42,194 bases of DNA, taken from NCBI RefSeq assembly GCF_000750005.1, contig NZ_JPYA01000051.1, positions 1 to 42,194 on the forward strand. Reading direction: 5' to 3'. Source of the stretch: Geobacillus icigianus. Its GTDB lineage: Bacteria > Bacillota > Bacilli > Bacillales > Anoxybacillaceae. The position numbers and the translations under genes are program-made. Each line of letters opens with the position of its first letter. Position 1 is the first letter of the stretch. The notes under the pieces were generated by a model. That model did no database searches, had not been told where the DNA came from, and saw only the letters and a list, made by a program, of their open reading frames with translations. Positions 201 through 31,266 of this stretch are shown here, one piece after another.

Positions 201-337
201 TAAGAGGCTGGTGATTTAATCGTGGATACGGCTTTACCATGTCATTTCTCAATTAGAAAAACCTTGTTACATCGGTCCTGCTTTTCGCTCATTCTCCCAT
301 TGATGAAAGGAATCAGCGGTTTTTCACCGCCCTTCTA
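201..337 (+). repeat. Family A repeat, copy 1 (subtype iii)
   Basis: Starts AAGAGGCTGGTGATTT and ends GTTTTTCACCGCCCTTCTA, so the two ends are inverted copies of each other. The centre is TTTCTCAATTAGAAAA. It shares almost all of its sequence with copies at 30992-31131 and 18294-18407. Its right end overlaps the left end of copy 2. Confidence 0.85.
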
Positions 338-472
338 AAAGGTTGGTGAAAACCCGCTGTTTGCCTTAATCGGCGATGGAACGTGTGAACATAGAGGCTG
401 ATGCAGCCAGTTTTTTCTACTTGAGAAACGATCCGAAGAAGCGGTTGCGCGAGTAAATCACCGGCCTCCTAA
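334..472 (-). repeat. Family A repeat, copy 2 (inverted)
   Basis: This is the same element in reverse orientation. On the minus strand it runs from TTAGGAGGCCGGTGATTT through TTTCTCAAGTAGAAAA to GGGTTTTCACCAACCTTTTAG. It abuts copy 1 by sharing the terminal CTAA tetranucleotide, forming a tail-to-tail pair downstream of metC. Confidence 0.75.
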
Positions 473-924
473 ACAAACAATCGGTGGCGGAACGGTTCAA
501 GCAAGAGCGGGGCAACGGCGCTGGATGGTTTCGTATTGCCCAGTGGCGCGGCGGCGCTATTCTTCGGCGAAGGCTGCCGTTTTGCCGGGAGGCGCAGGGA
601 TGGGGTTACGGCCGATTGAAGGCGCTCCATGGCGGTTTCGTGCTGAGGGGGAATGGGCGTCAACCGCTGGCTGTACGCAGTGGTTTCCCCTCCGTTTTGC
701 GATGACAACGTTGAACGATTGGAGCGCCCTCGGCATCGGTCAGCGGAAAAACGGCGGCACGGCGACGGGCGGGGCTTTGGTTCACCGTCTTTTCGCGCTT
801 TGTGTGATGACCATGTTCACCACTTCCGGGCGCGGCCGGCGTTGGCACTGGCGCAGGGATAGATTTGCGTGATGACCATGTCCATCACTTCCCCCACGAC
901 AACGGAGCTTTCGTTCGCCGCCTT
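473..924. other. Gene-poor stretch with imperfect direct repeats
   Basis: I see no supportable gene in these 450 bases between a family A repeat and the end of metC. Open frames exist on both strands but lack ribosome binding sites and look like by-products of GC-rich DNA. A 24-bp motif, GTGATGACCATGTYCAYCACTT, occurs at 804 and again at 869. A weaker related stretch lies near 696. Each copy is itself partly palindromic (GTGATG...CATCAC). Confidence 0.4.
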
Positions 925-2103
925 TTAGCGCGCCGAAATCGACGGCCGTTCTTTCACAAACGACAGCGCCTGCTCAACATCGGCGATCAGATCGTTGACA
1001 TCCTCAAGCCCGACGCTCAGCCGCAGCAAGCCGTCGGTAATGCCGCGCCGCAGCCGCTCTTCCTTCGGCATGGCGGCGTGCGACATTTTTGCCGGGTGCG
1101 ACAAAATCGATTCGACCGCCCCAAGGCTGACGGCGAACACCGGCAGGCGGACGTGGCGGACGAACGTCCGGGCCGCTTCTTCATCGGCCAAGCGGAACGA
1201 CAGTACGGCGCCAAACCCCGCCGCTTGGCTGCGTTGAATGTCATGGCCCGGATGGTTCGCCAATCCCGGATAATACACCTCTTCCACTTTCGGATGGCGG
1301 AGCAAATACTCGGCGATGGCCATGGCCGATTCGGACGACTGTTTCAGCCGAACGTGAAGCGTTTTTAGCCCCCGAAGCACAAGCCACGCGTCTTGGACGC
1401 CGAGGACGGCGCCAAAGGCGTTTTGCCATTTGTACAGCTGTTTGCCGAGCTCCTCGTCTTTCACGACCGCCAGTCCGGCGACGACGTCGCTATGGCCGGC
1501 TAAAAACTTCGTCGCGCTGTGGAGGACAACGTCGACACCAAGATCCAACGGCCGCTGCAGCGCCGGGGTCATGAACGTATTATCCAAAAACGTCAAACAG
1601 CCGTGCGCTTTCGCCAGCTCGACGACAGCGCGAATGTCGGTCACTTTTAACAGCGGGTTGGACGGCGTTTCCATATAAATGACTTTCGTGTTCGGCCGGA
1701 TGTTTTCCGCCACCGCCTTGCGATCGGTCATATCGACGAACGTATAGTCAATGCCAAACCGGCTCAGCACTTCGGTGACGATCCGGTACGTGCCGCCGTA
1801 GACGTCTTCGGTTACGAGCACATGGTCGCCTTTGGACAGGAGCAACAACGCCGTGGAGATGGCGGCCATGCCCGAGGCGAACGCGAACCCGCGCACACCG
1901 CCTTCCAAGGCGGCGATCGTCTCCTCAAGCGCCTCGCGCGTCGGGTTGCCGGAGCGGCTGTAGTCGTATTTGCCAAACGAGTCGAAATCGAACTGATGGA
2001 ACGTGGAGGCGTGCTGGATCGGCACGCTCACCGCCCCGGTTGCGCGGTCGACTTTCCATTCGTTATGGAGCAGTTTTGTCGAAAACGACCATTCCCGTTC
2101 CAT
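925..2103 (-). CDS. metC: Cystathionine beta-lyase MetC (YjcJ-type)
   Basis: PLP-dependent enzyme of the Cys/Met metabolism family, 392 aa, expected to cleave cystathionine to homocysteine, pyruvate and ammonia in the cytosol. The family lysine motif LHSATKFLAGHSDVVAGL is intact near residue 195, with the DNTF motif upstream of it. The ATG follows AGAGGTGTGAGCG, which overlaps the end of metI; only 3 nt separate the two genes, so they form one transcript. The pair matches B. subtilis metI-metC (yjcI-yjcJ) and lies behind an S-box riboswitch, so methionine status should control it. Substrate choice within this family (beta-lyase or gamma-lyase) is inferred from synteny. Confidence 0.88.
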   Translation of the reverse strand: MEREWSFSTKLLHNEWKVDRATGAVSVPIQHASTFHQFDFDSFGKYDYSRSGNPTREALEETIAALEGGVRGFAFASGMAAISTALLLLSKGDHVLVTEDVYGGTYRIVTEVLSRFGIDYTFVDMTDRKAVAENIRPNTKVIYMETPSNPLLKVTDIRAVVELAKAHGCLTFLDNTFMTPALQRPLDLGVDVVLHSATKFLAGHSDVVAGLAVVKDEELGKQLYKWQNAFGAVLGVQDAWLVLRGLKTLHVRLKQSSESAMAIAEYLLRHPKVEEVYYPGLANHPGHDIQRSQAAGFGAVLSFRLADEEAARTFVRHVRLPVFAVSLGAVESILSHPAKMSHAAMPKEERLRRGITDGLLRLSVGLEDVNDLIADVEQALSFVKERPSISAR

Positions 2104-2106
2104 CGC

Positions 2107-3210
2107 TCACACCTCTTTCATGTTTTTGAACGCTTGCGCCAAGTCGGCGATCAAATCATCGGCGTGCTCAATGCCGACCGAGAAGCGGAGCAGCCGGTTG
2201 CAGACGCCGTTTCGGATGCGGATGTCTTCCGGAATGTCCGCGTGCGTCTGCGTCGCCGGATACGTGATGAAGCTTTCAACTCCGCCTAGGCTTTCCGCGA
2301 ACGTAATAAGGCGCAAGCTTTTTAAAAATCCGTTCACCCACTTTTCATCGGCAATCCGGAACGACAGCATCCCACCTTTTCCTGGATATAAGACGTCGGT
2401 CACGTCTTCCTGTTCGCGCAAAAAGGCGCTGATGCGCTTGGCGTTTTCTTCATGCTGGCGCATCCTTAGCGCCAACGTTTTCATCCCGCGGATCAATAGC
2501 CAAGAGTCAAACGGGGACAAGACGGCGCCGATGGCGTTATGGTACTCGGCCAAGCGTTGACAAAGCGCTTCTCCCTTGGCGACGACCAAGCCAGCCAACA
2601 CATCGTTATGGCCGCCTAAATATTTCGTGGCGCTGTGGAGGACGATATCGGCTCCTTGTTCAATCGGGCGCTGGAGCACCGGGGTGTAAAACGTGTTATC
2701 CACGATCAACAATAGCCCGTGCCGTTGGGCAAGCTGGGCGACCGCGGAAATATCGGTCTCGTGCATCAGTGGGTTTGTCGGCGTTTCCAAGAAAATCGCC
2801 TTCGTTTTTTCGCTGATACACGCTTCCACCGCATTGAGATCGGTAAAATCGACATAATGGAACCGAAGACCGTACTTGCGCCAGCCGCGCTCAAACAAAC
2901 GGTACGTGCCGCCGTAAAGGTCGGCCGATACGAGAAACTCATCTCCGCTCTCAAACAAGGCGAGCACCGTCTGAATGGCGGCCATGCCGGAGCTGAACGC
3001 ATAGCCTTGATCGCCGCCTTCCAGCTTTGCGATCGCCTCCTCAACAATTTTGCGCGTTGGATTGCCGGTGCGGATGTAGTCAAACCCGGTCGATTCCCCG
3101 ATGCCGGCATGGCGGTAGGCGGTCGAAAAATAGACGGGCGGGTTGACCGTTCCTGTCACGGTTTCGCTCCGGTTGCCGATTTGCGCTAACAACGTCTCCA
3201 GTTTCTCCAT
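2107..3210 (-). CDS. metI: Cystathionine gamma-synthase / O-acetylhomoserine thiolyase MetI
   Basis: First gene of the metI-metC operon, 367 aa, PLP fold-type I. It joins an activated homoserine to cysteine to make cystathionine. The PLP lysine lies in LHSATKYLGGHNDVLAGLV. An upstream in-frame extension to 3273 is open, but the ATG at 3210 (MEKLETLLAQIGNRSE) follows the strong site AGAAGGAGAG and gives a length near the 373 aa of B. subtilis MetI. The ribosome site lies downstream of the S-box terminator, as expected for transcription-attenuation control by S-adenosylmethionine. Confidence 0.9.
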   Translation of the reverse strand: MEKLETLLAQIGNRSETVTGTVNPPVYFSTAYRHAGIGESTGFDYIRTGNPTRKIVEEAIAKLEGGDQGYAFSSGMAAIQTVLALFESGDEFLVSADLYGGTYRLFERGWRKYGLRFHYVDFTDLNAVEACISEKTKAIFLETPTNPLMHETDISAVAQLAQRHGLLLIVDNTFYTPVLQRPIEQGADIVLHSATKYLGGHNDVLAGLVVAKGEALCQRLAEYHNAIGAVLSPFDSWLLIRGMKTLALRMRQHEENAKRISAFLREQEDVTDVLYPGKGGMLSFRIADEKWVNGFLKSLRLITFAESLGGVESFITYPATQTHADIPEDIRIRNGVCNRLLRFSVGIEHADDLIADLAQAFKNMKEV

Positions 3211-3333
3211 CTCATCTCTCTCCTTCTGCAAAAAAATTCCTCTTGCCCAACGACCGGCGGCCGCAGCGCCCAAACGCTTCGCTGCCGCCCCGCCTCACAG
3301 GTCGGCAAAACGGCCGCCGAAACAAAGGAAAAT

Positions 3334-3380: not shown

Positions 3381-3493
3381 TTCTTCTTATCTGCCGAATT
3401 GAATGCTCAATTCGCTGGATTTAGCACCTGGCCGCCGGGCGGCTGGTTGCTGAAGCTTCATTGGGCCAGTTCCCTCCGCTTCTCTCGATAAGA
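3381..3493 (-). promoter_or_regulatory. S-box (SAM-I) riboswitch aptamer
   Basis: On the minus strand the conserved S-box blocks appear in order: CTTATCGAGAG, GCGGAGGGA, TGGCCCAATGAAGC, CAGCAACC, a GC-rich P3-type hairpin GCCGCCCGGCGGC, AGGTGCTAAATCC, a hairpin around GCGAATTGAGCATTCAATTCG, and the closing P1 strand AGATAAG. SAM binding should stabilise P1 and let the following terminator form, shutting off metI-metC. This layout is well known for methionine genes in Bacillaceae. Confidence 0.95.
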
Positions 3494-3620
3494 ACAGGAT
3501 GGGTATTCAATTTTGTTGCAATTTTATTTATTAAGAAATGTAACGCATTCCAGCGGTTTTTGCAAGTCTTTTTTTCGCTGCGCATCACTCGGCAAATTCA
3601 CAAAAAATTCGAGCCCTTGA

Positions 3621-6539: not shown

Positions 6540-6766
6540 ACTCGATATATGGGGCTGTGACAGGAAAGGCTCTGTCATGGAAAATATCCAAGCATCCATT
6601 CGTCTACCACGCCCACCGAAGTTGCGAAAACCAAGCGAAAATAGGGGCGTGGCAAGTCCGATGTACAAGTTTGCCATACGTGCAGGAGGCTTACGCCATT
6701 GGTACTGCCAGCCGTCGGGGCGACGGGGATAGGCTGCTCAATCATTGAAGGATGCCTTGAAGGGCG
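6540..6766 (+). mobile_element. Possible right-end relic of an IS200/IS605 (TnpB-type) element
   Basis: The stretch GCCGTCGGGGCGACGGGGAT (6708-6727) followed by AGGCTGCTCAATCATTGA forms two consecutive small hairpins. It ends GATGCCTTGAAG, much like the structured right ends (omega-RNA 3' regions) of IS200/IS605 elements. Upstream, CCACGCCC and GGGGCGTGG form a longer stem (about 6607-6653). No transposase or TnpB frame survives. The left boundary is a guess. The end abuts a family A repeat at 6759. Confidence 0.35.
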
Positions 6767-6893
6767 GTGATTGAAGGAAACAAGTCGCTTACCAGCCTCG
6801 TTTCTCAAATCGAAAAGCCCTGTCGCAGCGAAAATCGGCTTGCAAACGTCCCCTATTGTTCAAGAGAAACAACCGTTTTTCACCCGCCTTCTT
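6759..6893 (+). repeat. Family A repeat, copy 3 (subtype ii)
   Basis: Begins GAAGGGCGGTGATTGAAGG, has the centre CGTTTCTCAAATCGAAAAG, and ends AACCGTTTTTCACCCGCC. It is highly similar to the copies at 11171, 14931, 15158 and 31128. It lies in the 700-bp gap before the thioredoxin gene. Confidence 0.85.
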
Positions 6894-6976
6894 GGCGTTC
6901 GCAGGAATCTCTTCAAATTTTGTCAAGTAAGGTGGAGTAGTTCAAAACAGTGGCAGAAAGAGGAGGAGGAAAAACG

Positions 6977-11046: not shown

Positions 11047-11174
11047 CTAGGAGGCTGGTGATGTAGTGCAAAACATTACTGAATTCCATCTATTTCTCAA
11101 TTAGAGAAACTTTCTTTACTAAATGAAAATACCGCCGATTTGTGTGTGACAGCCGTTTTTCATCGCCCCTCTAG
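11047..11174 (+). repeat. Family A repeat, copy 4 (subtype i)
   Basis: CTAGGAGGCTGGTGATGTAG opens the element. The centre is TATTTCTCAATTAGAGAAAC and the end is GTTTTTCATCGCCCCTCTAG. Its last CTAG is also the first CTAG of copy 5. The pair separates the first DUF1657 gene from the rest of the spoVA-type operon. Confidence 0.88.
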
Positions 11175-11309
11175 AGTGGCGGCGATTTAAGGAAACAGGC
11201 TGCTTACCAGCTCCGTTTCTCAAATCGAAAAGCCCTGTAGCATCAGGATCGCCTTTCACACGCTCCCCCATTGTCGAAAAGGAACAACCTGTTTTCACCA
11301 GCCATCTAG
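11171..11309 (+). repeat. Family A repeat, copy 5 (subtype ii)
   Basis: Starts CTAGAGTGGCGGCGATTTAA, has centre CGTTTCTCAAATCGAAAAG, and ends TTTTCACCAGCCATCTAG. It is fused to copy 4 through the shared CTAG at 11171-11174. Confidence 0.88.
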
Positions 11310-17237: not shown

Positions 17238-17240
17238 TAA

Positions 17241-18063: not shown

Positions 18064-18067
18064 TTCT

Positions 18068-19917: not shown

Positions 19918-19927
19918 CAAAGTCCGT

Positions 19928-20065: not shown

Positions 20066-20095
20066 ACTTAGCCGCGGTTTCGGCCAATTCAGCTC

Positions 20096-20172: not shown

Positions 20173-20247
20173 CCCCGTCCGAGGATTTCCGGCGGCAACG
20201 GATATACTAGTTTTATCTCGATCATCCATCGAAAGGGGGCTTCCCAT

Positions 20248-20985
20248 ATGATGCTGGACATCATCGGTGACATTCATGGCTGTTTTCGTGAATTCGCCGC
20301 GCTCATCGAACGACTCGGCTACCGATGGGAGGAGGGAGTGCCGGTTCATCCCGGCGGACGAAAACTAGGGTTTGTCGGCGATATAACCGACCGCGGGCCG
20401 GAGTCGCTGAAAATGATCGAGGTCGTTTCGGCGCTTGTGGAACGAAACCTTGCGTATTATGTGCCGGGCAATCATTGCAACAAGCTGTACCGCTTTTTTC
20501 TGGGCCGAAACGTGCAAATCACCCACGGTTTAGAAACAACGGTCGCCGAATACCGCGCCTTGCCGCCAAGCGAACAAGAGAGAATTCGCCGCACGTTCAT
20601 TCGCTTATATGAAGGGGCGCCGCTTTATGCCGTGCTTGACGAAGGGCGGCTTGTCATCGCCCATGCCGGCATTCGTCATGATCATATCGGCCGGTTGGAC
20701 AAAAAAGTGAAAACGTTTGTCCTTTACGGGGACATCACCGGCGAGACGAACGATGACGGTACACCGGTGCGCCGCGACTGGGCCAAGCGATACCGCGGCG
20801 ATGCCTGGGTCGTTTATGGACACACGCCCGTTCCGGTCCCGCGCTTTGTCGGCCGAACGGTCAACATCGATACCGGCTGCGTATTCGGCGGCGCGTTGAC
20901 CGCGTTTCGCTATCCGGAAATGAATACCGTCTCTGTGCCGTCATCCATGCCGTACGTGCCGGAGAAATTCCGGGCGTTCTCGTAA
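20248..20985 (+). CDS. prpE: Bis(5'-nucleosyl)-tetraphosphatase PrpE
   Basis: 245 aa metallophosphoesterase. All PPP-family metal motifs are present: GDIHG near residue 7, [10 protein letters not shown] near 47, GNHCNKLYR near 75, HAGIR near 145 and GHTPV near 190. PrpE of B. subtilis cleaves Ap4A asymmetrically, can remove protein phosphate, and affects spore germination. Ribosome site AAAGGGGGCTTCCCAT precedes two consecutive ATGs at 20248 and 20251. It is conserved in order between fabI and yjbO. Confidence 0.93.
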
Positions 20986-20999
20986 CAGCCCCCGTTTGT

Positions 21000-21899
21000 T
21001 CATCCGCCCGCGCCTTTGATCAGACGAACGAGATCATCGGGAAGCGGAGCGGCGAACGTATACAGCTTTCCCTCGAGCGGATGAACAAACGACAACGCTC
21101 GGCTATGAAGCGCTTGGCGGCCGATCATTTCCCGACTTCCGCCGTACAGCTCATCGCCGGCCAACGGATGGCCAAGATAGGCCATATGAACCCGGATTTG
21201 GTGGGTGCGCCCGGTCTCAAGCCGAAGGGCAACATGCGTATAGCCAAAGAGCCTCCGCAGCACACGAAAGTGAGTAACGGCCCGTTTCCCATCCTCCCGC
21301 ACTTCGCGGGCGATGATGCTGTCGCTCCGCCGCCCGATCGGCGCGTCAATCGTCCCTTCTTCCTCGATGATGACGCCATGGCAGATGGCCTCATACGTGC
21401 GTGTCACTTGCCCTTTTTGCTGCAGCGCCGACAGCAAATGGTGCACATGGCGGTGTTTGGCCACCAGCACAAGCCCCGACGTGTCGCGATCAAGCCTCGT
21501 CACCACATGAACGGTCGACTCGAGCTGCTGCTGCCGATAGTAGTGAAGAATCCCGTTTGCCAGCGTCCCGCCTGGGTGATGGCGCGACGGAATCGTCGCC
21601 AATCCGGGCGGCTTGTTGACGACAAGGACGTAGTCATCTTCATACACGATGTCAAGCGGCATCGCCTCGGGCTCCATCCAATCGCTTGTCCGCTCCGGCG
21701 GAAAAACGACAGACAGCCTCTCGCCGGCGCGGAGCACATGGCGGACGGTCACCGGCTGTCCGTTCACAAGCAGCGCCCCGCCGTGAAATTTGATATCGGT
21801 AAGCGCGGTGCGCGAAATGTGGTTCTCTTGCAAAAACTGGCGCAGCAGCTTTCCGTCATGCTGTTCATCGATCAAAAACGTCATCGTCAACGGCGGCAC
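21000..21899 (-). CDS. yjbO: RluD-family pseudouridine synthase YjbO
   Basis: 299 aa. An N-terminal S4-like RNA-binding region (FLQENHISRTALTDIKFHGG) precedes the catalytic domain. The signature HVVTRLDRDTSGLVLVAKH near residue 130 contains the catalytic Asp. RTHQIRVHMAYLGHPLAGD near 245 is also characteristic. It should convert uridines to pseudouridine in rRNA; the exact site is not deducible. The start is GTG at 21899 after AAAGGTGACAAACT. It is downstream of nadK on the same strand, separated by a repeat. Confidence 0.9.
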   Translation of the reverse strand: MPPLTMTFLIDEQHDGKLLRQFLQENHISRTALTDIKFHGGALLVNGQPVTVRHVLRAGERLSVVFPPERTSDWMEPEAMPLDIVYEDDYVLVVNKPPGLATIPSRHHPGGTLANGILHYYRQQQLESTVHVVTRLDRDTSGLVLVAKHRHVHHLLSALQQKGQVTRTYEAICHGVIIEEEGTIDAPIGRRSDSIIAREVREDGKRAVTHFRVLRRLFGYTHVALRLETGRTHQIRVHMAYLGHPLAGDELYGGSREMIGRQALHSRALSFVHPLEGKLYTFAAPLPDDLVRLIKGAGG

Positions 21900-22079
21900 A
21901 GTTTGTCACCTTTCTGCTTCCAAAATCAGAAAATGGCTTGCTTTCAACTCCGTTATCAATGCTGGGCTTTCCCCAGCCAACGTGACGCTGAAGCTACAAA
22001 TCGACGCCAGCGGTTGGCCCCTTTCCTAAGCCTTACGCTGAAGGCTTCGACTCCGTTGTGGAGGAGTCGCGCCCTCCGC
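21900..22079. other. Spacer between nadK and yjbO
   Basis: 180 bases with no supportable gene. They contain two imperfect copies of a CTCCGTT-centred motif (TTTCAACTCCGTTATCAATG and GCTTCGACTCCGTTGTGGAG) and several ACGCTGAAG strings. Otherwise I see nothing in it. Confidence 0.4.
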
Positions 22080-22219
22080 CTAGAAGGCTGGTGAAAAACC
22101 GCTGTCACACACCAATGATCGCACTTTCATTCGGAAAAGAAGGCTGTTTCTACGAGGTTTCTCTAATTGAGAAATGGGTGGAAGCAGTAGTATTTTGCAC
22201 GAAATCACCAGCCTCCTAG
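22080..22219 (-). repeat. Family A repeat, copy 13 (subtype i)
   Basis: Full-length copy with perfect ends: on the minus strand CTAGGAGGCTGGTGATTTCG ... CATTTCTCAATTAGAGAAAC ... GTTTTTCACCAGCCTTCTAG. It is the best reference copy in the window. Confidence 0.92.
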
Positions 22220-22233
22220 GAACAGAAACGTTT

Positions 22234-23049
22234 CTACTCCGTGATAAATGAGTCGCGCACCCGGCGCCAAAACGGAAACGGGCGAAAGCGGGCGAAACGC
22301 ACTTTTTCATCCGCCACCCGGCATTGAATCGATTTCACTTCTTTGTGCAACAGCGACAAATGGTCGATGGTAATTTGAAAATCGACATGATTGACCGGCT
22401 TGAGCAAGCACGTATGGTGCGCCGGCAGCACGAGCGGCGAGCCGATCGTGCGAAAGACGCGATTGTTGATCGACGCCATTTCCGTCACTTGAATCGCTTC
22501 AAGCGACGGATGCAAAATGGCACCGCCGAGCGCCTTGTTATAAGCCGTGCTGCCGGTCGGCGTGGAGATGCATAGCCCGTCACCGCGAAACCGTTCGAAC
22601 CAATCGCCGCGAATCTCAACGTCCATGACGAGCGTCCCGCTGACGCATTTCACCGTGCATTCGTTAAGAGCAAGGTATTTCGTTTCCTTCTCGCCACTAA
22701 TATGGCGCACGGTCACTTCAAGGAGCGGATACTCGACGACTTGATACGGCGTTTTAGCGATGGCGATGACCAGCTTTTCGATCTCCTCGGGCACCCAATC
22801 GGCGTAAAAACCGAGATGGCCTGTATGAACGCCGACGAACGCCGTCTGATCCAACCGATGGCAGTAGCGGTGGAACGCATACAGCAGCGTTCCATCCCCG
22901 CCGACGGAAATGACCAAATCAGGCTCCTCTTCGTCGCAGCGCAGGTCAAAATCGAGCAAATACGTTTTCATCTTTTGCGCCAAGGCGTTCGAGACGTCAT
23001 CGCCTTTGGACGTAATGGCAAACGCAAGCGGGGCGTCCGTTCTTGTCAT
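22234..23049 (-). CDS. nadK: NAD kinase
   Basis: 271 aa; makes NADP from NAD and ATP. The diagnostic [13 protein letters not shown] lies near residue 50 and the NAD-binding LALNECTVK near 126, followed by [20 protein letters not shown]. It is close to B. subtilis YjbN/PpnK along its length. The ATG at 23049 follows AAAAGGAGAAGGACA and overlaps the stop of the alarmone synthetase gene (ATGA), so translation is coupled. Confidence 0.95.
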
Positions 23050-23684
23050 TGTCCTTCTCCTTTTGCCTCTTGTTTTCTGGAAAATGCCGCCTGCGCCTCT
23101 TGAATCTCAAAACGGATTTTGGACATTTCCTCATCCAGACGGTAAGCGGCCTCGGCGGCCCGCTGCAGCCGGGCTTTAATATCTTCCGGAAAACGGCCGC
23201 TGTATTTATAGTTTAGCGAATGCTCAATCGTCGCCCAAAAGTTCATCGCCAGCGTGCGAATTTGGATTTCCGCCAAAATCTGTTTCTCACCGCGGATCGT
23301 CTGCACCGGATAGCGGATGACAATATGGTACGAACGGTAGCCGCTCTCCTTTTTCTGCGTAATGTAGTCGCGCTCCTCAACGATAGTAAAATCGTTTCGT
23401 TGGCGCAAAAGTTCAACGACCGTCTTGATGTCGTCGACAAACTGGCACATGATGCGCAGACCTGCGATGTCTTGCATCTCCTCTTCAAGGCGGTCAAGCG
23501 GGATGTTTTTCTTTTGCGCCTTATCCAAAATGCTAGCAATCGGTTTCACTCGCCCGGTGACAAATTCAATCGGCGAGTGCGCCTCGATCATCTCAAACTG
23601 GGCGCGAATGCCCCGCAGCTTCACTTTCAGCTCCTCGACAGCCTGCTTATACGGAGCTAAAAACAAATCCCAATGATTCACCAT
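23046..23684 (-). CDS. sasB: Small alarmone synthetase, YjbM/SasB/RelQ type
   Basis: 212 aa with a single RelA/SpoT-type synthetase domain and no hydrolase. [44 protein letters not shown] and [20 protein letters not shown] are the conserved synthetase blocks. It makes (p)ppGpp/pGpp from ATP and GDP/GTP. The ATG at 23684 gives the same length as B. subtilis YjbM. An upstream in-frame extension to 23855 runs into a repeat array and is rejected. The nadK neighbour is conserved. Confidence 0.93.
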
Positions 23685-23795
23685 CGTACCACCTGCCTCT
23701 ATACGTTTGCATTTCCCGCGGCTCGGTGCCAACCCACAAGGAACGCCGCTGCCGTCCTCTTTTTCCAGCCAGACGAAGAGCCGCACTTCTTGTTC

Positions 23796-24075
23796 GGTAA
23801 ACATCCCGAACTGACGCGAATTTTCATCCCCGGATAGGGATAAAACGCCGCCCATGGAACGTTTCCGTGAAAGTCCCGAACTGACGCGCGATGTTCATCC
23901 CCGGGTGGAGGGCGGATCACTGCCCATGGAACTTCTCTACGAAAAATCCCGTCAGCAAGCGGTCACTTTCATCCCCGGGTCGATGTTACATCGCTTACCA
24001 TGAAAATGCCGAACTGGCGCGGATTTTCATCCCCGGGTCGAGGGCAGATCACTGTCCATGGATCTTTTCTGTAAA
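23796..24075 (+). repeat. Family B tandem repeat array, locus 1
   Basis: About four units of the 71-76 bp pattern TTTCATCCCCGGGTGGAGGG - CA - ATCACTGCCCATGGAAC - TTTCTGTGAAAATCCC - GAACTGGCGCG, anchored at 23822, 23893, 23967 and 24024; the third is shortened. Two hairpins form per unit: GGGCA/TGCCC, and TGAAAATCCC against GGGATTTTCA. It lies between yjbL and the alarmone synthetase gene. Confidence 0.85.
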
Positions 24076-24438
24076 AAACACCTCTTGCACGGCCTGTTCC
24101 AGCTCTTCCCCATAATTGGCATTGCCGCGAATGTTATCGAGCAAATAAGCGAGTTCCTCGTCAAACTGTTCGAGTTCGACGGCTTCCTCTCCGCTTTGCA
24201 GCCAAACGGGCTCCTTGGCGGCTAGCGTCGCTTTCAATTCCCGCCACCATTGTTGGGGAATGGCGACGTAAAGAAAGCGGTCATCCGTTTCCAAAAGGTA
24301 AACAAACGCCAGCCCGTCGGAATCCACGAGCATATGGCGCTTTGGGGCCACATCGGCGAGCGAAACGGGAAGATCAGCGCGCAGCCAGAGCCGCCCCGCT
24401 TTCCTCTCCGCGTGATGAACGGTCACTTTCTCGTTCAT
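24049..24438 (-). CDS. yjbL: UPF0738 protein YjbL
   Basis: 129 aa, soluble, with the conserved core HMLVDSDGLAFVYLLETDDR near residue 35 and LDNIRGNANYGEELEQAVQE near 100. Function unknown; it matches B. subtilis YjbL in position and pattern. The family normally ends just after the final helix. Here the last residues (TEKIHGQ) and the TGA stop are encoded by a family B repeat unit, so the native C-terminus was probably replaced. Ribosome site GGAAGGAGAGAAAGC. Confidence 0.85.
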   Translation of the reverse strand: MNEKVTVHHAERKAGRLWLRADLPVSLADVAPKRHMLVDSDGLAFVYLLETDDRFLYVAIPQQWWRELKATLAAKEPVWLQSGEEAVELEQFDEELAYLLDNIRGNANYGEELEQAVQEVFFTEKIHGQ

Positions 24439-24574
24439 GCTTTCTCTCCTTCCACCTCAACCAAACCTCCGCCCTTTATTTTACCATATTCACCCTCTGC
24501 AAACGAAATAATTGATATTCAGCGAAAAACAAACGATAATAGAAAGAGACGATGTCCGAAGAAGGAGAACAACG

Positions 24575-25165
24575 ATGTACCAAGAAGTAGAGAGGGAATG
24601 GAAAAACTTGCTGACGCGGGAAGAGTTCGCTGCCATCCGGGCCGCTTTCGGCTTGGATGACGACGCTTTCCGCCGCCAAGAAAACTATTACTTCGACACC
24701 CCTTCGTTTGCTTTGAAACAACAAGGAGCGGCTCTGCGCATTCGCGCCAAAGACGGTCGCCTGATGTTGACGCTGAAACAAACGCAAACGGACGGGACGC
24801 TACTGGAAACGCACGAGCCGCTGACGCCGTCTGAAGCGAGCGCGCTTCTCAACGGGGCCGCCCCGCGCGGCGGAATCGCATCGCTGCTAGTAAATTTGGG
24901 CATCGATCCGCATCGTTTGCGCTGTTTCGGCTCCCTCGTCACCGATCGCGCCGAATGGCCATACGAAGGCGGTACGTTATGCCTTGACCATAACCGCTAC
25001 TTGCATTGCGAAGATTATGAACTCGAATATGAAACCGATGACGCCGTGGCGGGTGAGGAACGGTTTTTGCGCCTGCTCGCTGCGCTTGGCATTCCCCGCC
25101 GTCCGGCGCCGAACAAAATCGCCCGCTTTTATGCTCAAAAGGATGAAATGGGGGAAAAGGAATGA
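24575..25165 (+). CDS. yjbK: CYTH-domain phosphatase-like protein YjbK
   Basis: 196 aa CYTH/TTM fold. The ExExK signature is EREWK near residue 7. Further charged strand motifs are [28 protein letters not shown] and YELEYE. CYTH proteins hydrolyse triphosphates (thiamine-PPP, inorganic PPP) or make cAMP; the substrate here is not evident. The ATG at 24575 follows GAAGGAGAACAACG. It overlaps the following gene by 4 bp. Confidence 0.88.
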
Positions 25166-25758
25166 CGATTTCACCGTTGCAATTGCTTGTGGAATGGCAG
25201 GCGCTCGCCTCGTTTTCGCCTAATCGTTCCAGCCTCTCGTCGCCCGTCCCTTCGCTGTTTTCGATCCTCTTGGCCGAATATATGAAAAACCAAGCCGAGG
25301 CGGCGGAAACGCTTTCGACTTCGGATACAGGGCGTGCCAATGCCAGCGCGTCGAACAAGGAAACGGTCCCGTTCTCCGGGGCATCTTCCATTGATCGTCT
25401 TATTGCGGCAGCCGCGGAAAAGTACGATGTCGATCCACATCTGATCCGCGCTGTGATTCACCAGGAGTCCGGCTTTCGTCCTGACGCGAAAAGTCGAGCG
25501 GGAGCGCTTGGATTGATGCAGCTGATGCCGAGCACCGCCAAAATGCTGGGCGTGGAGAATCCGCTTGATCCGGCGCAAAATATCGACGGCGGAGTGAAAT
25601 ACTTGCGCCAGCTTCTCGACCGGTATAACGGCGATGTCACGCTCGCCTTAGCCGCGTACAACGCCGGCCCCGGAAACGTCGATCGTTACGGCGGAGTGCC
25701 GCCGTTTGCCGAAACACAAGCGTATGTCAGACGCGTGCTCGACCGCTGGCGCATCTAA
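25162..25758 (+). CDS. yjbJ: Soluble lytic transglycosylase YjbJ (CwlQ-like)
   Basis: 198 aa. A low-complexity N-terminal 80 residues precede an SLT domain: [20 protein letters not shown] with the catalytic Glu, [13 protein letters not shown], and [18 protein letters not shown]. It cleaves peptidoglycan glycan strands. B. subtilis CwlQ (YjbJ) has both transglycosylase and muramidase activity. No clear signal peptide is seen, so the export route is uncertain. Its ATG overlaps the yjbK stop (ATGA). Confidence 0.9.
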
Positions 25759-25779
25759 ACGGCGGTCAAGTCGCTTTGT

Positions 25780-25808
25780 TTGAGCTGGGCGGCCGTTGCT
25801 GATAAAAT
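25780..25808 (+). promoter_or_regulatory. Candidate sigma-A promoter of the yjbI-spxH pair
   Basis: TTGAGC (25780-25785), 17 nt, then TAAAAT (25803-25808) with an extended TGA element before the -10. Confidence 0.6.
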
Positions 25809-25856
25809 AGCAATCAAGCGACAACGTATGATCTTCAAGCAAAAGGAGCATCCGCG

Positions 25857-26270
25857 ATGGGAGAGCAATGGCAAACTCTTTATGAGGCGATTGGTGGAGA
25901 GAAGACGGTCGCTAGGCTTGTCGAAGCGTTTTATCGGCGCGTAGCTGTGCACCCGGACTTAAAGCCGATCTTTCCTGACGATTTGACAGAAACCGCCCGG
26001 AAGCAAAAACAATTTTTAACGCAATACTTAGGCGGGCCACCGCTTTATACGGAGGAGCATGGCCACCCGATGTTGCGGGCGCGCCATCTCCGCTTTGAAA
26101 TCACGCCAACGCGGGCACAAGCGTGGCTTGCTTGCATGCGGGCAGCGATGGATGAAATCGGCCTGTCCGGTCCAGCGCGCGAACAGTTCTACCATCGGCT
26201 TGTGCTCACGGCCCATCATATGGTCAACACTCCAGATTCTCAGGACAGAAAGGAGCATTCCCTTGAGTGA
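25857..26270 (+). CDS. yjbI: Group II truncated haemoglobin YjbI
   Basis: 137 aa 2-on-2 globin. The start [40 protein letters not shown] with the distal pocket, the proximal histidine in [20 protein letters not shown], and Trp near residue 90 identify group II. Known roles are oxygen or peroxide chemistry; YjbI interacts genetically with SpxH-type redox control. The ATG at 25857 follows AAAAGGAGCATCCGCG. Its end overlaps the spxH start by 8 bp. Confidence 0.93.
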
Positions 26271-27153
26271 GAAGTTCGCTGGGAAAACGGCGCCGGCCTG
26301 TGCCGATTCCCAGCCGCTAGGCAGCACGAAGAAACCGCTTGAGCTGTATCTCTTTATCGATCCTTTATGCCCGGAATGCTGGGGGCTTGAGCCCATTGTA
26401 AAAAAGCTGACGATCGAATACGGCCGTTTTTTTACACTGCGGCACATATTGAGCGGAAAATGGGCGACATGGCGCGCGAAAGGGACGAAGGCCGAAGCGC
26501 TAGCAAAAGCGTGGGAATGGATAGCGAATCGATCTGGCATGTCATGTGATGGAAGCGTGTGGCTCGAAAACCGGATTTCCAGCCCGTTTGCCCCGTCGCT
26601 CGCCATTAAAGCGGCGGAAATGCAAGGAAAACGGGCCGGTCTCCGCTTTTTGCGCAAACTGCAAGAGCAGCTCTTTCTTGAAAAGCAAAACGTCGCCGAT
26701 TTGGAAGTGTTGGCCGAATGCGCGGCAGAAGCCGGGCTTGACGTCGATGAATTTTTGCGCGATATGCACTCGCCCGGAGCGGCAAAAGCGTTCCAATGCG
26801 ATTTAAAAATCACGTCGGAAATGGATGTGGAAGAAACCCCGACGCTCGTTTTGTTTAATGAAAATATCGAGGATGAAGGCATTAAAATTTCCGGATGCTA
26901 CCCGTACGAGATTTACGCCGAGTTGATCGCCGAAATGCTCGGCTTCCATCCCGAGCCGTCCCCTCCCCCTCCGCTGGAATCATTTTTAGGTCATTTTAAA
27001 TTCGTCGCCACAAAAGAAGTTGCCGTTGTGTACAATTGGACGATCCAGGAAGCGGAAACGGAAATGAAAAAACTGCAGTTGAAGCAAAAAGTCGAGCGGG
27101 TGCCTGTGAAGCACGGAACGTTTTGGCGTTATATCGAAGAGTCCGAACCTTAA
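26263..27153 (+). CDS. spxH: Spx adaptor SpxH (YjbH), DsbA-like
   Basis: 296 aa. [20 protein letters not shown] near residue 30 carries the CPEC motif in a thioredoxin/DsbA-type fold, and [13 protein letters not shown] near 90 is conserved in YjbH. SpxH delivers Spx to ClpXP for degradation. The best start is TTG at 26263 behind GAAAGGAGCATTCCC; no ATG in frame has a ribosome site, and an open extension upstream overlaps yjbI. Its target spx lies at 35052 in this window. A strong terminator follows. Confidence 0.9.
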
Positions 27154-27165
27154 CTCAAACTATGA

Positions 27166-27202
27166 CACAAAAGAGCCCGGCATTCGCCGGGCTCTTTTGT
27201 GT
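27166..27202 (+). terminator. Terminator after spxH
   Basis: ACACAAAAGAGCCCGGC-ATTC-GCCGGGCTCTTTTGTGT, a 17-bp perfect stem with a built-in U-run. Confidence 0.95.
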
Positions 27203-27365
27203 TGTCAAGACAACAAAGGGGATGGGAGAAATTGTTCACGGTCAAACAAAGGGGTATCAGGTTTTTGTCTTCCGTTCACAGTTTTATCTTACCAAATGGA
27301 CGAATCGATTGACAACCCCTTTGCTCGTTTGTTCACATGATTGTCATAATTTTGACCGCTTCCTT
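27203..27365. other. Intergenic spacer after spxH
   Basis: No gene seen. ACAAAGGGG occurs twice (about 27211 and 27245) and its complement CCCCTTTG once (about 27316). A TTGACA at 27309 has no convincing -10 partner. Confidence 0.35.
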
Positions 27366-27496
27366 CGAGGCCAGTGATTGAAGGGGAAATACTGCTCTCC
27401 AACAATGTTTCGCAAACGGAAAACCTTGCAATGTCATCATTTCATTCCTTGTGATTTCTCACCAATCGAGCGAATCGGTTGTTTTTCACCAGCCGG
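27366..27496 (+). repeat. Family A repeat, copy 14 (degenerate)
   Basis: CGAGGCCAGTGATTGAAGGG at the left, TGTTTCGCAAACGGAAAAC in the middle, TTGTTTTTCACCAGCC at the right. It has diverged more than the other copies and lost its terminal CTAG. Confidence 0.6.
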
Positions 27497-27608
27497 ACCC
27501 GTTTCCCCACTCAAATCAGCGAAGCCGCTCTTTTTTCATCCGCCGGCCTGCAACATAGATGGACAGCATATAATGAAGGAAGACAGCCTAACAAGGGAGG
27601 TCGTCTTC

Positions 27609-27806
27609 ATGAAAGAGCGAATCGCTTTTTTCTTTTGGACGGCAGCCGTCATCGTCGCATTCATCTTGAATTTGCTCGGATTCATGCGGCTCATTCCGCT
27701 CTGGGCGACAATGCCGCTGCTGTTTTGCTGTCTCCTTGGCCTCGTATCGACTTGGAACCGCCGTCATCAGTTTAAGGGATTGCCATCGAAACGAATGCGG
27801 CTGTAG
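27609..27806 (+). CDS. Small two-helix membrane protein, function unknown
   Basis: 65 aa. Two hydrophobic helices (IAFFFWTAAVIVAFILNLLG and ATMPLLFCCLLGLVSTW) are joined by a short loop, and the tail is basic (RRHQFKGLPSKRMRL). Ribosome site AAGGGAGGTCGTCTTC. A TATAAT at 27569 may be its -10. I do not recognise a family. Its stop codon lies inside the terminator hairpin that follows. Confidence 0.75.
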   Translation: MKERIAFFFWTAAVIVAFILNLLGFMRLIPLWATMPLLFCCLLGLVSTWNRRHQFKGLPSKRMRL

Positions 27807-27820
27807 CCGCATTCGTTTCA
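27788..27820. terminator. Terminator between the small membrane protein and pepF
   Basis: GAAACGAATGCGGCT-GT-AGCCGCATTCGTTTC. The TAG stop of the plus-strand gene is in its loop, and the pepF stop is at its edge. Confidence 0.75.
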
Positions 27821-29638
27821 GCTCCCAAGCAGCCGCTCGAACTCTTCCAGTTTTTCGGCGAATACTTGGCACGCCTGGCGGATCGGCTCGGCGCTCGTCA
27901 TATCCACCCCGGCTTTTTTCAGCACTTCAATCGGATAATCGGAGCTGCCCGCTTTTAAAAAGTCGATGTACCGCTTCACCGCCGGTTCGCCCTCTTCAAG
28001 AATTTGCCGGCTAAGCGCCGTCGCCGCGCTGAAACCAGTCGCATATTGATACACGTAGTAGTTGTAATAAAAATGCGGAATGCGCGCCCATTCCAAACCG
28101 ATTTCTTTGTCGACCACCATGTCGCTGCCGAAGTACTTTTGATTCAAGTCATAGTACAGCGATGTCAGCGTCTCTGCCGTCAGCGCCTCCCCTTGCTGCT
28201 CCTTCAAATGGATCAAATGCTCAAACTCGGCAAACATCGTCTGCCGAAAGACGGTGCCGCGGAATCCTTCAAGGTAATGGTTGAGCAAATACAGCCGCTT
28301 TTTGTCATCATCGATCGTTTTCAATAAATAATCATTCAACAGCGCTTCGTTGCACGTCGACGCCACTTCGGCGACAAAAATCGAATAATGGGCGTACGGA
28401 TACGGCTGCGTTCGGCGTGTGTAGTAGCTGTGAACCGAATGGCCGAACTCATGAACGAGCGTAAACAAATTGTTGACGTTGTCCTGCCAGTTGAGCAAAA
28501 TGTACGGGTGTGTGCCGTACGCTCCCGAGGAATAGGCCCCGCTCCGCTTTCCTCGGTTTTCGCGGACATCAACCCAGCGATTCTCAAGTCCTTCTTTGAC
28601 AATGGCGATGTATTCCTCCCCGAGCGGCGCCAACCCTTCCAGCATATACTGCTTCGCTTCGTCATACGTCACTTCCATTTTTACCTCTTTGACTAGCGGC
28701 GTATATAAGTCGTACATGTGCAGCTCATCGAGCCCGAGCGCTCGTTTGCGCAGCCGCACGTAGCGATGCAGCAGCGGCAAATGCTCGTGGATGGTAGCGA
28801 TCAAGTTGTCATATACGCTCTCAGGAATGTTGTTCGCATCCAACGCGGCCTGCCGGGCGGATTCATAGCGGCGGACGCGAGCAAAAAAGTTATCCTTTTT
28901 CACCGCGCCAGCTAACGTATTGGCAAAGGTGTGTTGGAATTGATCGTACGTCTGGTACACCGCGTAAAACGCATCGCGGCGAACACGGCGATCCGCGCTT
29001 TCCAAAAAGCGGATGAAACGCCCGTGCGTGACTTCCACTTCTTCACCGTTTTCATCGACGATGGCCGGAAAGGTCAAATCGGCGTTATTCAACGCGCTGA
29101 ACGTGTTGGACGCTGACTGCATCACCTCGGCCGCCTGCGCCAACAGCGCCTCCTCCTCAGCCGAGAGAACGTGCGGGCGTTGGCGCGTAATCTCATCCAA
29201 GGCATGAGCATACAATCGAAGCGGCTCGTACTGTTCCAAAAAGGCGCGCACCGTCGCCTCATCGATGGCCAAAATTTCCGGAACGATGAACGCCATCGCG
29301 CTGGACGCTTCGCTGTATAAACTTTTCGCCCGAGCGTCAAGCCCTTGGTAAAAGGAGTTGGTTGTGTCTTGATCATAGCGCATATGGGCGTATGTATACA
29401 GCTTGCCAAGCCGCATCGATACCTCGTCTTGATATTGCAGCGCCTCATACAGCAGTTCCGGCGATTCGCCAAGCCGCCCTTTGTACTCCCCGAGCTTCGG
29501 GATCATGGCTTTCACTTGACGGAACTCCTGCTCCCACGCCTCATCGGTCGGAAAAATGTCTTCTAGCCTCCATGTCTCTTCAATCGAAATCTCGCTGCGC
29601 GATGGCAGCGACTTCTTTGTCTTTTTTTCCTCCACCAT
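27818..29638 (-). CDS. pepF: Oligoendopeptidase F
   Basis: 606 aa M3-family zinc metallopeptidase. The zinc motif HEFGHSVHSYY lies near residue 390, with the third ligand region FVAEVASTCNEALLNDYLLK about 25 residues later. It hydrolyses peptides of about 7-17 residues in the cytosol, fitting a genome with the Opp permease nearby. The ATG at 29638 follows AAGGAGGACGATGAC. The frame stays open upstream to 29995, but that part overlaps coiA and has no start site. It matches B. subtilis YjbG. Confidence 0.94.
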   Translation of the reverse strand: MVEEKKTKKSLPSRSEISIEETWRLEDIFPTDEAWEQEFRQVKAMIPKLGEYKGRLGESPELLYEALQYQDEVSMRLGKLYTYAHMRYDQDTTNSFYQGLDARAKSLYSEASSAMAFIVPEILAIDEATVRAFLEQYEPLRLYAHALDEITRQRPHVLSAEEEALLAQAAEVMQSASNTFSALNNADLTFPAIVDENGEEVEVTHGRFIRFLESADRRVRRDAFYAVYQTYDQFQHTFANTLAGAVKKDNFFARVRRYESARQAALDANNIPESVYDNLIATIHEHLPLLHRYVRLRKRALGLDELHMYDLYTPLVKEVKMEVTYDEAKQYMLEGLAPLGEEYIAIVKEGLENRWVDVRENRGKRSGAYSSGAYGTHPYILLNWQDNVNNLFTLVHEFGHSVHSYYTRRTQPYPYAHYSIFVAEVASTCNEALLNDYLLKTIDDDKKRLYLLNHYLEGFRGTVFRQTMFAEFEHLIHLKEQQGEALTAETLTSLYYDLNQKYFGSDMVVDKEIGLEWARIPHFYYNYYVYQYATGFSAATALSRQILEEGEPAVKRYIDFLKAGSSDYPIEVLKKAGVDMTSAEPIRQACQVFAEKLEEFERLLGS

Positions 29639-29675
29639 GTCATCGTCCTCCTTCATATGATTGATACATGTATTA

Positions 29676-30965
29676 TTATTCTCCATTTCTTGTTTCTTTT
29701 CCTGTTTTTTGCTCATGTTTTCCGCTTGGCGCCAACTCGAGCGCCCGCCAATACGCCGCCAGTGCCGGCGTGTCGCGGATCGTTTCGAGAAGTCTCCCCT
29801 CTTGCCGCAGCATGTCTTCCACGGTGGCTGGAAACGTGAGCGGCTTGACGAGGCGAAGCCGTTCCCCAGCTTCGCGCTGAAGATAGCCGAGCAGCCGCAG
29901 CCAATGCACATACTCAGCGACAGCCTGCCGGTAGTTGTCGCGGCCGACAAGCGGCAAGCGGCGGGGGACAAGCCGTCCGGTGCGGATTTTTTCATCCATC
30001 CAGCGCAAGAGCTGGGCCATCGTCATCGTCTGTCCCGGCGCGCGAAGAAACGGAAGCAGCACGTACGTCTGCCAAATGAACGGAGCCGTCTCCCATAAAT
30101 AGCCGCGCGGCAGCGGCCAGCCCGCTTCAACCGGAAACAGTGCCGGCACGATCCCCAATTGGTAAAAGTCGGAACAAATCAAGCGAGTCGCCCGGTTCGG
30201 GTAAAGCGGAAACGTCCGGCGCCACTGTTTTTTCTTTTCGAGCCATTGTTCCCAAAACAGCGGGGGAAGCGGCGGATGGCAAGCGGCGGTCAAAGCGGTG
30301 AAATCGAGCGAGGAAAGCGGAACAGAGTCAATCGTGGCCAACGCGCGGCGAACAGACAACGGCAAGGGACGGACGAGACGGATGAATCGCTTCGTTTCGG
30401 TGCTGTAGTACCATATATGAGGAAGAGAGGAAGAGGAAAAGCGATGAGCAAACAGCCATTGAAAGCGGGAAAGCGCAACATCTCCCGCCGGCGTTGACAA
30501 GCGCCGCAAATGATGAGCGCCCAACACCCAGAGCGGGCGAATGCCGAGGCGGCGATAACCGTCATTGCGCTCGTAAAACACGGATTCCTCGATCGTCGAG
30601 CACTGATACTCGAGGGCATAGAGATGCCACTGATGGCGGAACAGCACATCGGGGCGTTGGCGAATCGCAGGCAAATACGGTTCTAGCTTCGCTTCGATGC
30701 CTTGGGCGGTAAGCCATACAAACCAGTCGCGTTTTCCGATCAAGTGCCGCTCCGATTCCGGTTCATGCTCAGCCGGACAAGCCGTTCCTTTCCGATGAGC
30801 AAAATGCGGCAAGCGACGGGGGCCGGACCGCAGCACGACTTCCTGGCGGCAGGCAGGGCAAAAAAACGGCGCGCGGCGCTTCCAACCAGCCAGCCGCTCC
30901 TCGCTCCACCGTTCCGCCCCGACAAGCGACAACACTGTTCCGTCCGCTAAAAGAGCAACGAACAA
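29676..30965 (-). CDS. coiA: Competence protein CoiA
   Basis: About 429 aa. The N-terminal Cys motif FFCPACRQEVVLRSGPRRLP with HFAHRKG, then ESERHLIGKRDWFVWLTAQG, PDVLF and ALEYQCSTI, fit the CoiA family. This includes a PD-(D/E)XK-like nuclease core (E..., D-V, E-Y-Q). CoiA aids processing of transforming DNA. The ribosome site AAAGGAG favours TTG at 30965; ATG 30971 and ATG 30986 are alternatives. The upstream DNA is a family A repeat, so the promoter may have been displaced. Confidence 0.87.
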   Translation of the reverse strand: MFVALLADGTVLSLVGAERWSEERLAGWKRRAPFFCPACRQEVVLRSGPRRLPHFAHRKGTACPAEHEPESERHLIGKRDWFVWLTAQGIEAKLEPYLPAIRQRPDVLFRHQWHLYALEYQCSTIEESVFYERNDGYRRLGIRPLWVLGAHHLRRLSTPAGDVALSRFQWLFAHRFSSSSLPHIWYYSTETKRFIRLVRPLPLSVRRALATIDSVPLSSLDFTALTAACHPPLPPLFWEQWLEKKKQWRRTFPLYPNRATRLICSDFYQLGIVPALFPVEAGWPLPRGYLWETAPFIWQTYVLLPFLRAPGQTMTMAQLLRWMDEKIRTGRLVPRRLPLVGRDNYRQAVAEYVHWLRLLGYLQREAGERLRLVKPLTFPATVEDMLRQEGRLLETIRDTPALAAYWRALELAPSGKHEQKTGKETRNGE

Positions 30966-30991
30966 CCGCATCACTCCTTTGTCCATCAAAA

Positions 30992-31131
30992 CTAGGTGGC
31001 TGGTGATTTCATCATGGATACAGCTTTACACTGTCATTTTTTAACTAGAAAAGCCTCGTTGCATCGGTCCTGCTTTTCGCTCATTCTCCCATTGATGAAG
31101 GGAATCAGCCGTTTTTCACCAAGCCTTCTAG
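30992..31131 (+). repeat. Family A repeat, copy 15 (subtype iii)
   Basis: CTAGGTGGCTGGTGATTTCA, TCATTTTTTAACTAGAAAAG, ATTGATGAAGGGAATCAGCC, TTTTTCACCAAGCCTTCTAG. It is nearly the same as copy 1. It starts 6 bp upstream of the earliest possible coiA start codon. Confidence 0.88.
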
Positions 31132-31266
31132 GAGACCGGTGATTTAAGCGGACAAGCCGTTTATCAAACCCGTTTTTCAAATAGAAAAGCCTCGTCGCAT
31201 CACGATCACCTTTCAAACGATCCCCCATTGCTCAAAAGAAACAACCGTTTTTCACCAGCCTTCTAG
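31128..31266 (+). repeat. Family A repeat, copy 16 (subtype ii)
   Basis: CTAGGAGACCGGTGATTTAA to CCGTTTTTCACCAGCCTTCT AG. It is joined head to tail with copy 15 through one shared CTAG (31128-31131). Confidence 0.88.

Follow-up and report, generated by a model that had tools for sequence, protein, structure and literature searches.

Repeat copies in the window

The 42,194-nucleotide stretch of Geobacillus icigianus DNA analyzed here (contig NZ_JPYA01000051.1, positions 1 to 42,194; henceforth the window) carries 16 copies of a short palindromic repeat that lies mostly between genes. A non-autonomous miniature inverted-repeat transposable element (MITE) had been proposed from the sequence alone, and the repeat ends, a target duplication, empty sites, and a partner insertion sequence (IS) support this original prediction. 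We put at roughly 92% the probability that these repeats form a MITE family whose movement depends on a transposase supplied in trans by an IS1182-like DDE insertion sequence.

A profile search found all 16 listed copies again in the window, with starts shifted by 0–3 bp relative to the earlier list; the profile itself was built from 15 of the 16. The 15-bp end motif, at ≤2 mismatches, occurs 16 times in the window against 0.00 expected from 100 shuffles. Each copy was delimited by the profile and, unless stated otherwise, its flanking tetranucleotides (4-mers) were scored and its interior was assigned to subtype A, B, or C by clustering.

At the left edge, two subtype C copies have a 4-bp boundary in common: 200–338 on the plus strand (123.5 bits; flanks CTAA/CTAA) and 335–472 on the minus strand (TTAG/TTAG in the element orientation). 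The subtype B copy at 6756–6894 (plus strand) is flanked by CTTG/CTTG, a diagnostic non-CTAG duplication. One CTAG is common to the plus-strand copies at 11047–11174, which is internally shortened, A-like by eye, and flanked by CTAG/CTAG, and 11171–11309, a subtype B copy whose left end is too diverged for the scored set of target duplications and whose CTAG/CTAG flanks were read by eye. Also on the plus strand are 14034–14174 (subtype A; TTAG/CTAG), 14931–15069 (subtype B; CTAA/CTAG), and 15158–15286 (B-like by eye; CTAA/CTCA).

The minus-strand copy at 18294–18407, with a C-like interior by eye, adjoins the minus-strand subtype A copy at 18404–18546 (CTAG/CTAG) at the latter's CTAG. Three more minus-strand copies follow: 19928–20067, of subtype A, with a second diagnostic non-CTAG duplication (TCAG/TCAG in the element orientation); 20096–20180; and 22080–22219, a well preserved subtype A copy (109.8 bits; CTAG/CTAG) with at least 46 BLAST matches in its own genome (40 of 220 candidates scored). 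While all 16 copies are real, those at 18294 (66.7 bits, model positions 25–134) and 20096 (51.5 bits, model positions 9–85) are not intact, the former being truncated and the latter both truncated and decayed. On the plus strand, the copy at 27363–27500 has a degraded right end (78.2 bits; CTTC/ACCC), and one CTAG is common to the copies at 30992–31131 (subtype C) and 31128–31266 (subtype B; CTAG/CTAG). A 1-base shift near the right end of copy 30992 led to its being scored CTAG/TCTA. Elsewhere in the genome, a stretch at G000:C160:5477-5619 is 99% identical to copy 31128. Copies thus occur in both orientations, as had been noted.

Target duplication and element anatomy

Beyond the window, profile searching raised the sample to 62 copies over 442 kb of G. 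icigianus sequence; the further 46 lie in 400 kb drawn from five other contigs already known to carry copies, a choice that biases their density. The outer CTAG had been read as the end of the element. It is present at the ends, but it is not part of the element; it is instead a 4-bp target duplication, YTAR-like, with CTAG preferred. Flanking 4-mers were identical in 30 of the 48 scorable copies, as is expected of a MITE (CTAG 21, CTAA 4, TTAG 2, and CTTG, TCAG, and CTAT 1 each); the remaining 14 sampled copies were dropped, 7 being incomplete or near a stretch edge and 7 having more than 3 end mismatches. Of these matching pairs, 9 are not CTAG; in 10,000 shuffles the mean was 1.0 and the highest count was 5.

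The element proper is ~131 bp long and has no coding capacity, and full copies measure ~121–144 bp including the flanking tetranucleotides, inside the 70–300 bp range of MITEs. It is bounded by the imperfect terminal inverted repeats of a MITE, AAGGCYGGTGAAAAAC at one end and RAGGCYGGTGATTT at the other. Placed in a common orientation, a copy reads YTAR, RAGGCYGGTGATTT, an interior that contains a core, GTTTTTCACCRGCCTT, and YTAR, with decay in some copies.

Three interior subtypes had been described, and clustering of 40 full-length copies from the window and the 400-kb sample returned them, with 12, 13, and 14 members and a single copy left as an outlier. The alignment comprised 40 copies selected from 48 with model ends within 4 positions, and 39 of the 40 entered the subfamily consensuses. 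Members of a group share on average 81%, 81%, or 73% identity, respectively, and the two most similar copies are 99% identical. The central palindrome that had been reported stands in part: TTTCTCAATTAGAGAAA is palindromic in subtype A only, while the other two consensuses read TTTCTCAANTAGAAAAR. At the ends, 14 of 16 and 20 of 22 columns are the same in all three consensuses, as are 22 of 29 columns of the central core; between ends and core the figures fall to 8 of 28 and 13 of 46. These borders were set by eye after the alignment had been inspected, and a border-free repeat of the test scanned the 99 interior columns in 28-column windows, the best of which held 22 agreements; shuffled columns gave a mean of 15.2, and none of 20,000 shuffles reached 22. 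The core TTTCTCAANTAGARAAACCTTGNNGNATC, at alignment columns 46–80, is therefore conserved across three otherwise diverged subfamilies, and a similar core was seen by eye in a copy from another genus. It might be an essential internal site, perhaps serving the transposase or a host factor, through which amplification to ~400 copies is driven and neighboring insertion is oriented, a suggestion that we offer tentatively and consider unlikely.

An insertion sequence with the same ends

A full-length transposon with the same ends had been called for, and an end-motif scan of 120 relatives located end pairs 1543–1561 bp apart. These IS copies span 1543–1562 bp including both flanking tetranucleotides and encode a transposase of 487–501 aa with DUF772, DDE_Tnp_1, and DDE_Tnp_1_6 domains, a combination of DUF772 and DDE transposase domains that is typical of the IS1182 family. 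The NCBIfam IS1182 model (NF033551) was the best of six families listed, at 230.5 bits against a curated cut-off of 270; one plasmid copy carries the annotation 'IS5 family'. The designation IS1182-like reflects both the score below the curated cut-off and the target duplication, in which the partner differs from IS1272. The two IS ends, AAGGCCGGTGAAAAAGT and AAGGCCGGTGAATTAAT, have the same left-right asymmetry as the MITE ends, and the family thus has an autonomous partner with the same ends and target, as expected of a MITE.

Identical 4-bp flanks were found in 7 of 9 complete IS copies from Geobacillus and from G030, another genus of the family, and in 8 of 9 further copies from Brevibacillus massiliensis, Lentibacillus (four, from one genome), Hydrogenibacillus, a Bacillales metagenome-assembled genome (MAG), a Dethiobacter MAG, and G. 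proteiniphilus. The further nine came from 10 of 31 loci, the tenth being the G006 copy again, and overall, of 18 distinct complete copies, 15 were read by eye as having matching 4-bp flanks. The G. icigianus genome holds one IS with an open 493-aa frame (contig C26), one with a single stop (C200), and remnants (C142 and C149). Among 13 congeners (G001–G013), IS matches longer than 350 residues occur in seven (G001, G002, G003 with a stop, G006, G007 with a broken frame, G009, and G012), pieces at ≥90% identity in G005, G011, and G013, and 47-residue pieces only in G008 and G010; the transposase search of these congeners found no match in G004. At C200 one CTAG is common to an IS and a MITE, and at C142 a MITE likewise shares one with an IS fragment. 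The shared ends, target, and shared-CTAG junctions support mobilization in trans, and the IS1182-like transposase would on this sequence evidence act on the MITE.

High copy number, palindromic character, intergenic position, and clustering could also describe a repetitive extragenic palindromic (REP) or bacterial interspersed mosaic element (BIME)-like family moved by an IS200/IS605-type HUH (RAYT) transposase. The repeats possess terminal inverted repeats and a 4-bp duplication, and to our knowledge HUH/Y1 transposition makes no target duplication. The element is moreover ~131 bp long, as against the 20–40 bp given for REPs in the available text of one source (PMC3733652), and the same ends are found on a DDE transposon; a REP/BIME-like origin is thus extremely unlikely, and the IS1182-like transposase is the preferred mover.

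Three further observations concern the IS. We considered the MITE as an internal-deletion derivative of the IS and rejected this beyond the ends, the interiors being without match. At C149 (L084), an IS remnant with an internal gap is followed by two MITEs sharing a CTAG and preceded by a third MITE. In the C200 cluster (L020, 5247–7080), 5 of 6 MITE and IS ends carry GGGGA for the family GGTGA, the IS left end keeping GGTGA, which suggests local gene conversion. Separately, two loci from different genera, L035 (G036:C97) and L036 (G009:C9), are 99.95% identical over 2001 bp, through either recent transfer or contamination.

Empty sites in related genomes

End-motif matches in the congeners bore out the expectation of additional copies there. 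Five intervals between 18294 and 31266, which together hold eight window copies, were compared (18294 with 18404; 19928 with 20096; 22080; 27363; and 30992 with 31128), the site sequence being present in 13, 13, 13, 12, and 11 of the 13 congeners, respectively; none of the eight was found at the orthologous place in the congeners with sequence there. In G012, for example, the 19928 interval is represented by 1779 bp with no MITE match.

The 13 congener stretches yielded a single profile match, in G003 and at a different place, and this provided the precise empty site that had been sought: in the sister species G012 the site is exactly 135 bp shorter, with CGAG where G003 has CTAG twice. A second place holds no copy in G004, one in G012, and three in G003, the three sharing CTAG and alternating in orientation; the G012 copy has 117 identical positions with the first G003 copy and 83 and 84 with the others. 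Ten more 20-kb stretches each of G003 and G012, searched along with the earlier stretches, contained one G003 copy and three copies at one G012 place without orthologous flanks.

At the ortholog of 27363, a different palindromic insert of ~150 bp, GGCTCTTCACC...GGTGAAGAGCC, is present in G005, G008, and G010 (L071, L074, and L076), with an 8-bp duplication ATCAACTA by eye, and is absent in G011 and G013; we take it to resemble an ISL3-type MITE.

Abundance and gene context

Across the whole genome, the end motif at ≤2 mismatches gave 582 matches versus 25 for a reversed control, and the core motif at ≤3 mismatches gave 267 versus 0. The genome estimate is based on these whole-genome pattern counts and not on the 400-kb sample; it was calibrated by the 87 end matches and 39 core matches inside the 62 sampled copies, and no core-motif match fell outside those copies in the sampled sequence. 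The calibrated totals are ~397 copies from the end motifs and ~424 from the core motif in 3.46 Mb, so the family numbers roughly 400 copies, about 1 per 8.6 kb. The density of one copy per 2.6 kb reported earlier holds locally but not as a genome average, the window being ~3 times denser in copies; the earlier inference that the repeats shape transcription genome-wide arose from this atypically dense window.

The statement that all copies lie between genes needs little correction: 54 of the 62 sampled copies touch no gene predicted with a crude caller, overlap with a predicted gene is below 20% in 59 of 62, and it exceeds half in 1 of 62. CTAG itself occurs at 0.48 per kb in predicted genes and 1.37 per kb in noncoding DNA, with 3.9 expected from composition. 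Outside MITEs, 46% of CTAG sites are noncoding, as compared with the 54 of 62 copies, both figures resting on the crude gene calls. The intergenic share thus exceeds CTAG availability, which makes selection against gene insertions likely; intergenic position likely reflects such selection as well as the availability of CTAG.

Chains of copies

The 62 sampled copies occupy 41 loci, of which 25 are single, 11 double, and 5 triple (neighbors within 60 bp). Among the 21 neighbor pairs, measured in profile coordinates, 13 overlap by exactly 4 bp, 5 abut or overlap by 0–3 bp, and 3 are spaced by 2–37 bp. Chaining can be attributed to the new CTAG targets that each insertion makes. An urn model that draws at random on 178 intergenic CTAG sites, with one site added by each insertion, places 62 copies at 46 ± 3 loci; the probability of 41 or fewer is 0.06, and the 11 doubles and 5 triples compare with 8.8 and 2.3 in the model. 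Most of the chaining is accounted for by re-created CTAG targets, but orientation is not: it is the same in 17 of 21 chain neighbors (two-sided p 0.007) versus 17 of 35 distant neighbors. The CTAG target is symmetric, and a same-way bias is therefore not expected; it could come from insertion that is oriented next to an existing end, from the loss of inverted pairs because they are unstable, or from recombination.

Alternatively, chains could arise via tandem duplication or recombination between copies and not by repeated CTAG insertion. Recombination between target duplications could also produce the exact 4-bp overlap of the 13 pairs, and the shared orientation and the somewhat raised numbers of doubles and triples point the same way. 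The fit to the urn model counts against it, as do several chains that mix subtypes, such as 30992/31128 and 1733/1865/2000 at L025. The series from no copy in G004 through one in G012 to three in G003, the three alternating in orientation, likewise speaks against recombination, which may nevertheless have reduced three copies to one in G012. We judge this origin quite improbable and favor repeated insertion into re-created CTAG.

RNA structure

Transcripts of the repeats had been expected to fold into long hairpins. This is so for the subtype A consensus (−28.6 kcal/mol, 35 pairs), but not for those of B (−5.8 kcal/mol) and C (−1.5 kcal/mol). The difference bears on the alternative that the repeats, or at least subtype A, are selected functional RNA or regulatory elements (terminators, mRNA stabilizers, or small RNAs) whose spread is secondary. 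In the subtype A hairpin, 92.6% of cells are paired versus 40–54% in slid controls, and 8 pairs are changed on both sides versus 3.9 when shuffled, with 1 of 500 shuffles as high in these 12 related sequences. Folds of single copies, run first on four copies and then on the 48 of 62 with model ends within 4 positions, had z < −2 in 26 and 32 of the 48 (two strands) versus 8 of 60 random stretches. Ends paired in 36 and 40 of 48 folds versus 5 of 60 random stretches; terminal pairing is, though, expected for any element with inverted repeats, and copy 14931 folds no better than shuffles (z of −0.3 and −0.7 on the two strands).

An intergenic share above that predicted by CTAG sites and a conserved interior core would also suit a selected RNA, as would terminator-like sites inside four window copies (14957–14973, 15263–15280, 19951–19972, and 27463–27481). 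Over 13900–31500, however, neither terminator-like sites (35 vs 26.5, standard deviation 6.5) nor promoter-like sites (17 vs 10.8, standard deviation 3.9) are in clear excess. The occurrence of both orientations and the absence from congeners of the eight window copies compared argue further against a selected RNA, and pairs changed on both sides number 0 and 1 in subtypes B and C. At gathering score, the copies match no Rfam family; the window matches only the S-adenosylmethionine (SAM) riboswitch and tRNA. Overall, a primary RNA or regulatory function is improbable, and mobility as a MITE remains the preferred account. RNA structure as a general explanation was rejected, since the B and C consensus folds are weak and the mixed-subtype alignment yields 0 consensus pairs, and it was kept as an alternative for subtype A.

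Other repeats and features

A second repeat, with a unit of ~71–74 bp (TTTTCATCCCCGGGTGGAGGGC...GCCCATGGA...) and often in short tandem arrays, lies at 23820–24080, 34816–34830, and 40044–40205 of the window; its motif at ≤1 mismatch has 57 matches in the genome versus 0 in the control. In G005 and G011, direct copies of this repeat stand 1555 bp apart around a gene, which in G011 matches Pfam DEDD_Tnp_IS110. The SAM riboswitch, at 3384–3494 on the minus strand, is upstream of a pair of open reading frames spanning 925–3273. These adjacent minus-strand frames, 925–2103 and 2107–3273, contain a 107-bp direct repeat (75%) at 1859–1965 and 2975–3081 and are perhaps paralogues.

Discussion

Judged from sequence, the family appears to belong to the known MITE class, having every feature of that class that can be examined in this way. 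As far as the available text of two sources goes, it resembles Correia/NEMIS, RUP, Nezha, and ERIC elements in being short, non-coding, and mostly intergenic, with terminal inverted repeats, target duplications, and mobilization in trans (PMC10969869, PMC3733652). It differs from these classical bacterial MITEs in its own ends and target, its ~400 copies, and its chains sharing the target tetranucleotide; copy numbers given in the portions available of one source are >120 for Correia and up to 711 for ERIC (PMC10969869).

A likeness to the bcr-type repeats had been drawn, and it holds for size and look but not for end motif or mobility. The portions available describe bcr1–bcr3 of the Bacillus cereus group as MITE-like intergenic repeats of 100–400 bp (PMC6542083, PMC3446304) and tie bcr mobility to a TTTAT motif (PMC6542083), whereas the flanks here are CTAG/YTAR-like and not TTTAT. 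By that partial description, YTAR-like duplications and an IS with the same ends set the present family apart. According to the same portions, the bcr copies that belonged to an mRNA numbered 84 of 165 in one B. cereus strain and 62 of 155 in another, counted over all 18 families (PMC6542083, PMC3446304).

The partner is like the IS1182 family in its best NCBIfam match and its three domains, and its palindromic CTAG target is like the palindromic targets that the available text reports for some IS1182 members (PMC5678879). IS1182-family transposases are recorded in Geobacillus in the excerpt available (PMC9693769). The literature searched, judged by titles and the opening lines of abstracts and not extending to subscription journals or ISfinder, held no earlier description of a Geobacillus MITE, and a plasmid search with the MITE gave no match.

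Several observations weigh against mobilization by the IS1182-like transposase. Flanks are unequal in 18 of the 48 scorable copies, for which decay, a shifted reading, or recombination are possible causes, and in three IS copies: the intact one at C26 (TTAG/CTAA), that of G001 (CTAG/CTAT), and that of Hydrogenibacillus (CTAA/TTAA). G004, G008, and G010 contain 10, 33, and 28 end-motif matches despite no or tiny IS pieces, so that the partner may have been lost there or another partner may exist. The MITE profile finds no match in the IS at E ≤ 10. The window-site empty alleles lie in diverged DNA, with flanks at 72–88% identity among the matches listed; absence is therefore shown at these sites, and not base-exact empty sites. 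Chain neighbors mostly share an orientation, which a symmetric target would not impose. Finally, the available text on IS1272, a named IS1182 member, describes replacement of inverted repeats without target duplication (PMC5678879), and IS1182-type behavior can therefore not be assumed; the partner differs from IS1272 in its 4-bp duplication and is not seen to replace inverted repeats.

Taken together, a model for the movement of these MITEs emerges. The transposase would bind both MITE ends and cut, and the ends would be joined to a YTAR-like target with a 4-bp stagger, CTAG being preferred; duplication of the target would follow. Later MITE or IS insertions would land at the borders of earlier ones, because CTAG is rare and one is left on each side by every insertion, and chains of 2–3 sharing CTAG would result.

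Geobacillus thus gains an abundant MITE family with a likely transposase, a defined target, and a natural insertion series, and the MITE/IS pair is open to direct laboratory test. Re-creation of the target at each insertion offers a simple quantitative model of small-repeat clustering, from which the same-way orientation of neighbors is a testable departure. The copies are also likely to be recombination sites and assembly breaks, and may serve as typing markers.

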